Under the pieces are notes generated by a model. It saw nothing but the letters and a program-made list of their open reading frames with translations. It had not been told where the DNA came from and searched no databases. The position numbers and the translations under genes were made by a program. Shown piece after piece: positions 48,298-52,885 of a DNA stretch of 64,000 bases; position 1 is the stretch's first letter, and each line of letters starts with the position of its first letter. Location: contig MPNJ01000020.1 of the NCBI GenBank assembly GCA_002238965.1, positions 1 to 64,000 of the forward strand, written 5' to 3'. This DNA is from Nitrospinae bacterium bin107. Its GTDB lineage: Bacteria; UBA8248.

Positions 48298-51006
<2,709 letters not shown>

Positions 51007-51063
51007 GGGAGGGGATGACCCTTTTTGGGTTGTCCGCTTTTTTGAAATTGTTTCGTCGGTTTT

Positions 51064-51091
51064 GTAGGGACAGGTCGCGACCTGTCCCTAC
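51064..51091. repeat. Perfect palindrome GTAGGGACAGG...CCTGTCCCTAC
   Basis: A 28-base perfect palindrome centred on TCGCGA, the best preserved copy of the family in the window. It supplies the stop codon of the adjacent transposase (bases 51088-51090 read TAG on the minus strand), so gene and repeat are physically joined. Confidence 0.9.
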
Positions 51092-51690
51092 AGATGAGCC
51101 TGATTTGCCGGGTTTTCCTCATCCAGCGCCCATTGAAGCGGGTTGTTCCGAATATATTCGCGGATACTGTTTAGATCGTCTTCGTTTCGGATGACATGGT
51201 CGTAGAATGACCGTTGCCAGATGCGTTTCTCGAATGGCGGGAAACGTCCGGATTTCACCTCGTTGATGTATTCATTCGTGGTCATCGTCTTAAACCATTG
51301 AATGATTTCCTGTAGGGGCGGACCTGTGTGTCCGCCCTGGTGATTTTTTTCTTGTCGTTGTAGTTCCCCCTGTGGATATTCGTCCGATAACCGTTCTTCG
51401 CGTTGCGGGCGGACACACAGGTCCGCCCCTACGATTGCAACGATGCTGTGAATGTGATTCGGCATGAGGACAAATTCATCCAATACGAGATGCGGAAATT
51501 TGTTCTCAGTCTCGTTCCACCAACGGGCGGCCATCTTCCCCGCTTCGCTCAAAACCATCTCACCCTGGATGATTTCACCGAACAGACATTGCCTGGCCTG
51601 CGCGCAAATCGTGACGAAATAACATCCCTCTTGGGAATAATCATAATCCTCCAACCGATATGAATTTCGTCTCATTTGGTTCACGTTCAT
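51088..51690 (-). CDS. REP-associated tyrosine transposase (RAYT, Y1/HUH family)
   Basis: A 200-residue single-domain relative of IS200/IS605 TnpA. His79 and His81 (VLMPNHIHSIV) are the metal-binding HUH pair and Tyr163 (WQRSFYDHVIR) the DNA-linking tyrosine; RNNPLQW is a usual C-terminal mark. RAYTs cut and move short palindromic repeats in their genome. Residues ~86-97 (GADLCVRPQ) and ~118-127 (GGHTGPPLQ) are encoded by two inverted 26-base repeat copies inserted in frame in the loop after the HUH motif. The stop codon lies in another palindrome. All catalytic residues are intact. Confidence 0.9.
   Translation of the reverse strand: MNVNQMRRNSYRLEDYDYSQEGCYFVTICAQARQCLFGEIIQGEMVLSEAGKMAARWWNETENKFPHLVLDEFVLMPNHIHSIVAIVGADLCVRPQREERLSDEYPQGELQRQEKNHQGGHTGPPLQEIIQWFKTMTTNEYINEVKSGRFPPFEKRIWQRSFYDHVIRNEDDLNSIREYIRNNPLQWALDEENPANQAHL
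51312..51337. repeat. GTAGGGGCGGACC...GTCCGCCC repeat inside the RAYT gene, left copy
   Basis: A 26-base copy of the family also found at 4445-4470 and 7093-7118, located in the coding sequence of the transposase. It is the exact inverse of the copy at 51407-51432. Confidence 0.9.
51407..51432. repeat. GGGCGGAC...GTCCGCCCCTAC repeat inside the RAYT gene, right copy
   Basis: Perfect reverse complement of 51312-51337, separated from it by 69 bases. Both are in frame in the transposase, so the mRNA could fold a 26-base-pair stem. Confidence 0.9.
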
Positions 51691-51751
51691 AATTCATGCT
51701 CTAGGGGATACATAGGTATGCTCTACAGGTTTACCAAGCGCAATCACTTCC

Positions 51752-52885
51752 TCACGAAACAACTTCCACGAACCTCCCCCAGAGGTATTCCGCGTCTTCA
51801 TCAGTGAGCGGGTCGGGCGAGAGGAAGATTCCCGTATCGCCGGTTACGCCGATCTGCACACGCACCTCACATTCCCACAACGCATCGACAATCTCATCGC
51901 GTGATTTTCCGGTTGCTTCCTCGTCGATTTCGATCACGACTTCCGGCAAATCCTGCCCCAGCGAGTTGGGGCGCCTGATGCGGGGCGAGAGTCCCTTCAT
52001 CCCGGCTGTGCGCTCCATGAAGAATTCACACCATTTCTCGTTGTGGGCGCATTGCTCCGCCTCGCCGCCGTCCAGGTAATGTTCGAGCGCCGCGAGCAGG
52101 CCCACGATGTCGTCGCGCCCCGCCTTCATGGGCTGGCCGATCGAATATTTGGGGCTTCCCATCATGGCGCAGGCTTCGATGATTTCCTCTTTACCGAGAA
52201 TGATGCCCGTATTCTGAGGCCCGCCGATGCTCTTCCCCCCGCTGAAGATGGCGGCGTCGGCCCCCATCTCCTTCGTGTAGCGCCAAAGGTTGGAGGAGGG
52301 GGGAAGCTGCGCCGCGGCGTCCACGATTACGGGCACGTTCCTTTCGTGCGCGATCTCGATGATGGTTTCGAGCGTCAGGATGTTTTTGCCCGCATAGCGG
52401 CCCGGGAAATAGAAGACGCCCGCCGTTTTCTCCCCGATGGCCTCTTCGAGCTCCCAGGGATGGGTCTGGCGGTGTGAGCCGATCTCCACGAGCCGCGCTC
52501 CCGCCTGACGGATGTTGATGTCGTAGTGGTTTCTCTGGAAGCGGTGGATCACGATTTCGTTCTTGAGACCGTCTGTGAACGGCAGCTTGTCCATCAAGGC
52601 CGGGCTTCCGCCCGTGATGCAGGCGGCCGCGCACAGCACGAGGCCTGCGGCGGAACCGCTCGTGACGTAGGCAGCTTCGTTTTGCGTCATCCCGGCGACC
52701 CGTGCGCCCGCTTTCGCGTGGAGTTCGTTCATGTCCACCTGGGCGGCGTTCGCCTCCTGCATGGCGGCCCATACCTCGGGCCTCAGTCCCGAGCCGCCGA
52801 AGACGGTCTGGCGGGTGCGCGCGCTGATGACGCGGCGGATTCCGAGGTCAGTCAGGAATTTTGGGTTTTGCGCGGATTCGTTAAT
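51752..52885 (-). CDS. SelA-like PLP-dependent enzyme, probably with an ATT start
   Basis: A ~377-residue fold-type I PLP enzyme of the selenocysteine synthase (SelA)-like group. Family marks are LGIRRVISARTRQTVFGGSG then RPEVWAAMQEANAAQVDMNE at the N-terminus, SGSAAGLVLCAAACITG, VIVDAAAQLPP and the cofactor lysine in FSGGKSIGGPQNTG. The conserved N-terminus lies upstream of the first ATG (52762), and no ATG, GTG or TTG occurs there in frame. AAGGAG followed seven bases later by ATT at 52885 is the best start; CTG 52855 is an alternative. Real SelA is larger, so this is more likely an ammonia-lyase or aldolase-like relative. Confidence 0.85.
   Translation of the reverse strand: MNESAQNPKFLTDLGIRRVISARTRQTVFGGSGLRPEVWAAMQEANAAQVDMNELHAKAGARVAGMTQNEAAYVTSGSAAGLVLCAAACITGGSPALMDKLPFTDGLKNEIVIHRFQRNHYDINIRQAGARLVEIGSHRQTHPWELEEAIGEKTAGVFYFPGRYAGKNILTLETIIEIAHERNVPVIVDAAAQLPPSSNLWRYTKEMGADAAIFSGGKSIGGPQNTGIILGKEEIIEACAMMGSPKYSIGQPMKAGRDDIVGLLAALEHYLDGGEAEQCAHNEKWCEFFMERTAGMKGLSPRIRRPNSLGQDLPEVVIEIDEEATGKSRDEIVDALWECEVRVQIGVTGDTGIFLSPDPLTDEDAEYLWGRFVEVVS

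Follow-up and report, generated by a model that had tools for sequence, protein, structure and literature searches.

To our knowledge, it is an open question why a REP-associated tyrosine transposase (RAYT) and its REP remain together over such long times, and what keeps a RAYT matched to a single REP. The window analyzed here, a stretch of 64,000 nucleotides from Nitrospinae bacterium bin107, gives this question a concrete form: it holds a RAYT gene whose reading frame contains palindromic repeats, and a gene physically containing its presumed substrate makes the question of RAYT–REP matching testable. Can the repeats be substrate and coding material at once, and what becomes of genes that carry them? 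We consider it probable that a RAYT of subclass 2.4 embeds its own presumed REP substrate (a REPIN) in frame, that the insert is tolerated in a disordered loop, and that it acts as a rearrangement point. The position and frame of the repeats, their presence in relatives, their DNA-level behavior, their tracking with the transposase, and the breakage point of related genes are matters of observation.

The RAYT Gene and Its Subclass

The gene (51088–51690, minus strand) is an open reading frame of 200 codons, running from 51690 to 51088, with an aconitase gene (48298–51006, plus strand) and an aminotransferase-like gene (51752–52762, minus strand) as neighbors. Its ORF, profile matches, alignment, and AlphaFold2 (AF2) model mark the 200-aa product as a RAYT, or TnpAREP, an HUH-Y1 transposase of the subclass 2.4 type with the motifs NHIH, WQ (within WQRSF), and YIRNNP. 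The match to Pfam Y1_Tnp (E 3.9e-6) identifies a Y1 (IS200-like) transposase, and the NCBIfam model REP_Tyr_transpos (NF047646) is matched in two stretches with 66.1 bits (E 3e-18). This does not reach the NF047646 cut-off of 80 bits, which none of the 18 genomes of the phylum passes; the cut-off is a naming rule and concerns no defining residue or fold.

The HUH motif, His79-Ile80-His81, is encoded at 51448–51456 and the catalytic Tyr179 of EYIRNNP at 51154–51156 (both on the minus strand, located by ORF and alignment), with N183 and P184 downstream of the tyrosine. As the first-pass annotation had stated, the catalytic residues all survive: an alignment of 55 sequences shows H79, H81, Y179, and N183 without any variation. 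The AF2 model, computed with 55 aligned sequences, has a mean pLDDT of 83.7, with 92–98 in the core blocks (residues 21–80 and 131–190), and its top Foldseek match in the PDB is 4er8, a RAYT bound to a REP hairpin (E 2.6e-6, TM 0.50/0.60). The HUH motif, the tyrosine with its NP, the fold, and the flanking GT[AG]G-footed REPs together make the gene a RAYT/TnpAREP (class 2 TnpAY1).

TnpAREP subclass 2.4, which equals RAYT group 4 of Bertels et al. 2017 according to PMC6006769 (2018), is described in the available text of that survey by the motifs NH[IFV]H, WQ, and YIxNNP, a length of about 194 aa, and no tail (Table 1), and in-frame internal REPs are known for it. In its motifs, length, lack of a tail, and in-frame REP between HuH and Y, the window gene appears by sequence to match this description. 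The likeness extends to a variable β3–αC insertion and to double-foot REPs, and no anatomical difference is seen against the available text; a minor mismatch is Asp164, which stands at the E100 position, a change stated there for subclasses 2.5 and 2.7. Some members of subclasses 2.7 and 2.8 also have a REP insertion, and long GT[AG]G REPs flank these subclasses; the window RAYT does not share the motifs of 2.8 (NHYH, W[YH], YIHYNP), and those of 2.7 ([ND]HVH, WQ, YI[LR][NQ]NP) fit it more poorly than those of 2.4 (PMC6006769, available text). The E. coli TnpAREP of 4er8 (subclass 2.2) shares the HUH-Y1 fold as the best PDB match of the model, and W, Q, H, and R of its GTAG-contact region align by eye with the window RAYT at a constant offset; its motifs (DHLH/WE/YIHYNP) are unlike, and an internal REP is not among its features in Table 1 of the available text.

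REP Elements within and around the Gene

Inside the transposase gene lie two inverted 26-nt copies of one repeat, REP A, 69 nt apart and with 100% complementary arms. The GTAG-footed REP A1 (51407–51432, minus strand) encodes VGADLCVRP (residues 87–95) and starts one residue after the predicted HUH β strand, which ends at residue 86. Its exact inverted copy, REP A2 (51312–51337, plus strand), starts, in coding order, with the last base of codon 118 and stops at the first of codon 127, encodes GGHTGPPLQ (residues 119–127), and ends where the next predicted helix, starting at residue 125, begins. A second family, REP B, forms a perfect double-foot palindrome of 30 nt (51063–51092) whose GTAG foot provides the TAG stop codon of the gene (51088–51090); the feature start given earlier, 51064, falls inside this palindrome. 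The exact inverted pair, the peptides directly after the HUH strand, and the stop codon supplied by a palindrome of another family had all been reported in the first-pass annotation, and each of these observations holds.

The 3′ flank carries this intact REP B, and the 5′ flank a presumably decayed REP (51701–51726, minus strand), with an intact REP A standing in the same alignment columns of L096 and L097, syntenic loci from the same genus. At this one locus, then, less decay is seen in the internal copies than in the flanking one. REP A has no match within 2 kb outside the window gene (own-flank score 0.64), so that cognacy at the window locus rests on the syntenic relatives and on genome-wide copies. 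In the whole 4.37-Mb genome, the REP A 26-mer has 32 sites at three mismatches or fewer, and the reversed-pattern control has none; seven inverted pairs, read off the genome-wide site list, account for 14 of the 32. The pair in the window, two inverted REPs of one family that recurs in the genome, is thus a REPIN. The REP B core has 136 matches (70 forward, 66 reverse; control 0), many of them two readings of one palindrome. The repeats in the window are far beyond chance. The idea that REP A lies inside many other genes of the genome found little support: besides the RAYTs, most covering ORFs looked by eye spurious, or the REP stood upstream of the likely start.

REPs have been described to occur inside genes and, with their GTAG ends, often to furnish adjacent ORFs with TAG stops (PMC3733652). 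The foot-derived stops and in-frame REPs are features shared with the window gene; the host genes differ, being of several categories, many of them in DNA synthesis and repair, and RAYTs are not named as hosts in the available text. Since these stops, as well as the internal REPs of subclass 2.4 (PMC6006769), are already in print in the available texts, the arrangement is not new, and the window gene adds one member to a known kind. What is added here is a comparison of the REPs of four paralogues and many relatives, together with breakage at the REP.

Rickettsia palindromic elements (RPE) are also in-frame palindromic inserts in protein genes, like the window REPs, with different repeats; we know of no cognate transposase gene that carries them. 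RPE are mentioned in the available text of PMC3733652.

Internal REPs in Paralogues and Relatives

A search of the same genome with the window protein gave five matches: the window gene, three other full-length RAYTs, and one C-terminal piece. All three full-length paralogues contain palindromes of other families at the same site after the HUH strand. L002 has REP B twice in its linker, defined as the segment from HUH to WQ, and the linkers of L003 and L004 have REP C, GTAGGGGACGCATATATGCGTCCC, of which an inverted copy lies in the 5′ flank at a distance of 367 nt. Since the repeats of the window gene, L002, and L003/L004 differ, three RAYT types carry three REP types within one genome.

Relatives from many phyla were collected in one scan of genome contigs as the best 80 of 565; eight of the 80 loci gave no ORF and were left out, and the 72 parsable genes with the four of the same genome made a set of 76, in which the N and C parts of each gene served as controls for the linker. 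A GT[AG]G-footed REP hairpin is found in the linker of 65/76 genes against 0.5 expected from simple shuffles (20 per segment), a proportion biased upward because the loci were chosen as best by similarity to an insert-bearing alignment. The N part has such hairpins in 10/76 (expected 1.1) and the C part in 8/76 (expected 0.4). Perfect arms of at least 10 nt occur in 29/76 linkers and in two N parts and two C parts, while the best hairpin has p ≤ 0.01 (100 dinucleotide shuffles) in 36, 3, and 3 of 76 linkers, N parts, and C parts, respectively. Together, the shuffles and the N- and C-part controls rule out chance palindromes. The flanks of the RAYTs are dense in REPs. Perfect hairpins with arms of 12–14 nt also stand outside the linker, in the C-terminal part of L145 and L153 and in the N part of L168 and L174.

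A less biased sample comes from the window's own small phylum (18 genomes, NF047646 search, nine with a match), where a linker hairpin with an arm of at least 7 is present in 17/17 distinct ORFs spanning HUH to WQ, L177, L185, L195, and L200 among them not being full length. Genome G018, from another phylum, gave five hits, of which four were parsed, all four with a linker hairpin; no match came from the phylum to which G023 belongs. In a second phylum (291 genomes), 30 loci were taken and 27 parsed, with a linker REP in 15/27, as compared to two in the N part and one in the C part. The internal REP as a general property of all RAYTs was a candidate that had to be dropped: the top NF047646 hits of the second phylum, mostly with other HUH motifs, had a parsed linker at 19/30 loci, and a hairpin arm of at least 8 is found in one of these 19 linkers (L235; seven of the 19, L235 included, pass a stricter parse score). 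The linker REP is absent from 11/76 genes by the strict rule and from 12/27 genes of the second phylum, and hence it is not essential. A comparison of homologues with and without the insert, which the first-pass annotation had proposed, agrees with its view of the repeats as coding material: they are in frame within the transposase and missing from short-linker homologues such as L119, L122, and L159.

One REP site is present in 41 of the 65 REP-bearing linkers and two in the other 24. REPs on the plus strand are read as GTA-GGG 42 times, as nGT-AGG five times, and never in the TAG frame, since the reading frame must stay open. The stop codon supplied by a palindrome recurs as well: in 13/76 genes it lies within a REP, mostly as the TAG of GTAG, and it is probably a by-product of REPs abutting the gene. 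Several genes differ from the rest in size. L104, L105, and L106 are RAYT ORFs of about 320 aa, longer than the other parsed genes, with a long extension after the Tyr region, and the linkers of L311, L312, L291, L293, and L154 have grown by tandem peptide units (e.g., GGTGDAASGAPTVAR, SGAHADAL), L293 reaching 107 residues from HUH to WQ.

Behavior of the Internal REP as DNA

Several comparisons suggest that the internal repeat behaves as DNA more than as protein. An identical 28-nt REP B is located at the same place in L117 and L169, whose proteins have about 55% core identity, and is read in different frames, as RRDRSRPVPT in the former and VGTGRDLSLR in the latter. Among eight close relatives of the window gene, the single-REP hairpins are paired in 99.2% of cells, slid controls giving 31–53%, and each hairpin has one G–C pair compensated to A–T at the cost of C and R changes in the protein. 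The covariation score exceeds all 500 shuffles in these eight relatives; the pair-count and pair-type measures do not, with 343/500 and 500/500 shuffles reaching the observed values. As there is one event per helix among eight related sequences, with pair counts within the shuffles and one cell (L101) unpaired, compensation is modest evidence.

The REP also follows the transposase. It is shared (distance ≤0.2) by 14/18 gene pairs at 70–80% core identity, 15/102 at 60–70%, and 18/1949 below 60%, and REP sequence tracks transposase ancestry (Mantel r 0.244, 0/2000 permutations as high, n = 65). The internal hairpin matches a sequence in its own 2-kb flanks at 0.9 or more in 32/66 genes, versus 81/4290 for the flanks of other loci, the window gene being among those with no flank match. 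In REP-sharing pairs with core identity below 80%, 4-fold sites are identical in 147/147 cases in REP A codons versus 37% in the core, and in other REP families the identity is 0.93 of 68, 0.90 of 30, and 0.89 of 19 sites; for family B, the contrast is weak (0.75 of 20 vs. 0.37). Because this comparison uses families picked for alike REPs, the contrast is conditional on that choice. Behavior as a DNA element and tracking of the transposase would fit the original suggestion that the repeats are both substrate and coding material. For many subclass 2.4 RAYTs, the internal REP points directly from sequence to the probable cognate REP, which makes binding tests possible across dozens of pairs.

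The alternative that survives best is that the linker is a passive landing site: REPs would jump often near RAYTs, only in-frame insertions in the loop would survive, and the inserts, having no role, would often be replaced. Such a course of events comes close to an even chance, falling slightly short of it. It agrees with the predicted disorder of the loop, with the short REP-free linkers of some homologues, with flanks so rich in REPs, and with other genes having in-frame REPs (PMC3733652, available text). Recurrence at one site in 65/76 genes, sharing of the REP in most gene pairs at 70–80% core identity, and stems kept by compensation speak against it, yet all three are compatible with frequent replacement.

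The Predicted Disordered Loop and mRNA Stem

In the AF2 model, the blocks covering residues 91–120 have a pLDDT of 49–55 and are predicted to be disordered. With REP A1 starting at residue 87 and REP A2 finishing at 127, the two repeats bracket this predicted loop. At the RNA level, the mRNA of the window gene has a predicted fold of −71.2 kcal/mol (z −8.1) that includes a 26-bp stem between the two REPs, and the long stem is also the predicted fold in 8/8 closest genes. It might be supposed that the coding hairpins or this stem limit expression, either by slowing translation or by capturing the protein on the mRNA that encodes it; limited expression is what the first-pass annotation had considered for the stem. 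The strength of the predicted fold, its recurrence in all eight genes, and the single hairpins kept there are consistent with autoregulation; two REPs of one family, on the other hand, pair in any case, and the long stem is paired in 95.2% of cells compared to 99.2% for the single hairpins, with mismatches in three of the eight genes, in which the single-REP hairpins are compensated or nearly intact. Moreover, the stem cannot be general, since 41/65 REP-bearing linkers have one REP site only. The mismatches and the one-REP linkers weaken the 26-bp stem as a kept feature, and autoregulation is on the whole doubtful.

That the segment is an ancestral protein sequence under protein-level selection, the palindromic DNA being incidental, can be dismissed almost entirely. 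Similar peptides do occur again in distant relatives, but L117 and L169 translate one and the same REP B in two frames, which contradicts this very condition that the first-pass annotation had named as refuting. In addition, changes at R and C residues preserve the pairing of the stem, the loop is predicted to be disordered, and the stretch that separates the REPs is variable and gapped, while the 32 aa before WQ are 91–100% identical in the five A-type genes of the genus.

Breakage of Genes at the Internal REP

The window's phylum was searched with the family profile A3, which gave 25 matches, two of them, at G009:C305, counted as one gene. Both halves are present in 18, among which one has an internal stop, one is apparently shifted near its start, one is cut at a contig end, and one is split in the linker. 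Six others are half-genes, two with the N half only (G008:C182 and G003:C6) and four with the C half only (G000:C41, G007:C31, G001:C200, and G003:C30), and the missing half was not found within the locus analyzed. All six breaks fall at model positions 87–103 of 180. Five of the six have a REP where they break: an intact or almost intact one in G007, G001, G008, and G003:C6, and a half REP in G000. At G003:C30, the REP is unclear. The flanks of G000:C41 and G007:C31 are 89.7% identical over 1003 nt; these two represent one locus, and thus the six half-genes count as five events. L194 breaks in the linker with no clear REP, and only about 500 nt of contig are present past the break in L184.

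In the second phylum, where matches were listed to E 1e-14 and at most 11 candidates were scored in many genomes, 17 partial or split places were taken, leaving out matches ending near position 166 and two long fused ORFs. Among the matches listed, these places comprise four in-contig half-genes, 11 contig-edge pieces (L319, L321, L322, and L325–L332), which were set aside, and two genes split by a frameshift or insert (L333 and L334), set aside as was L188. Of the half-genes, L320, L323, and L324 each have a REP at their start; the break of L335 is elsewhere, at model position 65. Over both phyla, among the matches listed, 8/9 independent in-contig half-genes have their break in the linker and 7/9 at a REP; the binomial value is 1e-6 to 3e-5, assuming uniform and independent breaks. 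These counts suggest that RAYT genes of this kind tend to break at the internal REP, which would then also be where they fall apart. No discussion of breakage at the REP was met in the available text of PMC6006769, from whose survey partial sequences were discarded, or in the other papers listed, as judged by title or the opening of the abstract.

Two further observations concern incomplete genes. At G009:C305 (L188), the linker has gathered several REPs and the C part is out of frame; the gene was apparently broken by REP growth. Since 11 of the 17 partial RAYT places are at draft contig ends (L319, L327, L329, etc.), and several of these places lie in REP clusters, counts of RAYTs in draft genomes may be too low.

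A Possible Course of Events

Taken as a mechanism, the embedding of the REP could proceed as follows. The internal REP would be a putative substrate of the enzyme encoded around it, tolerated because the loop is probably non-essential. Its palindrome may stay good through renewed supply from the pool of cognate REPs or by being held identical to that pool, in which case the internal copy would be kept as DNA by re-supply or by use, being useful or merely tolerated. Along with the REPs that flank the gene on its 5′ and 3′ sides, the internal copy would divide the gene into two REP-bounded cassettes, the N-terminal HUH and the C-terminal Tyr cassette. Deletion or exchange between REPs would then yield half-genes and perhaps mosaic genes, the breaks being made either by the enzyme or by ordinary recombination.

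A stronger version of this scheme would make the internal REP a working joint, with the RAYT cutting or joining single-stranded REPs, internal as well as flanking, of its own gene, so that the HUH half or the Tyr half is deleted or swapped. We regard it as quite improbable. If it were true, self-cutting would inactivate the enzyme and leave half-genes behind, or mosaic transposases would arise in which the matching REP is carried along with the acquired module.

The Locus in Related Genomes

Between L096 and L097, which are syntenic genes, identity is 99% in the N part, 100% over the 32 aa before WQ, and 83% in the C part, a pattern which suggests, at the level of sequence, an exchange of the C-terminal part; the mosaic reading rests on few genes. 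In G004, the corresponding position is occupied by a B-type RAYT whose N part contains a stop, and the alignment to the window extends from the C-terminal third through the aconitase gene. As an alternative to a mosaic, this B-type RAYT may be an independent insertion at the locus.

G008 has no RAYT at the place of the window gene. There, at G008:C10 (L224, 2600–3110), stands a 104-aa ORF, presumably GIY-YIG-like, between palindromes whose arms are CATTCCGGC and GCCGGAATCC. Both the C-terminus and the TGA stop of this ORF are within the flanking repeat, making it another nuclease-like gene that ends in a neighboring palindrome.
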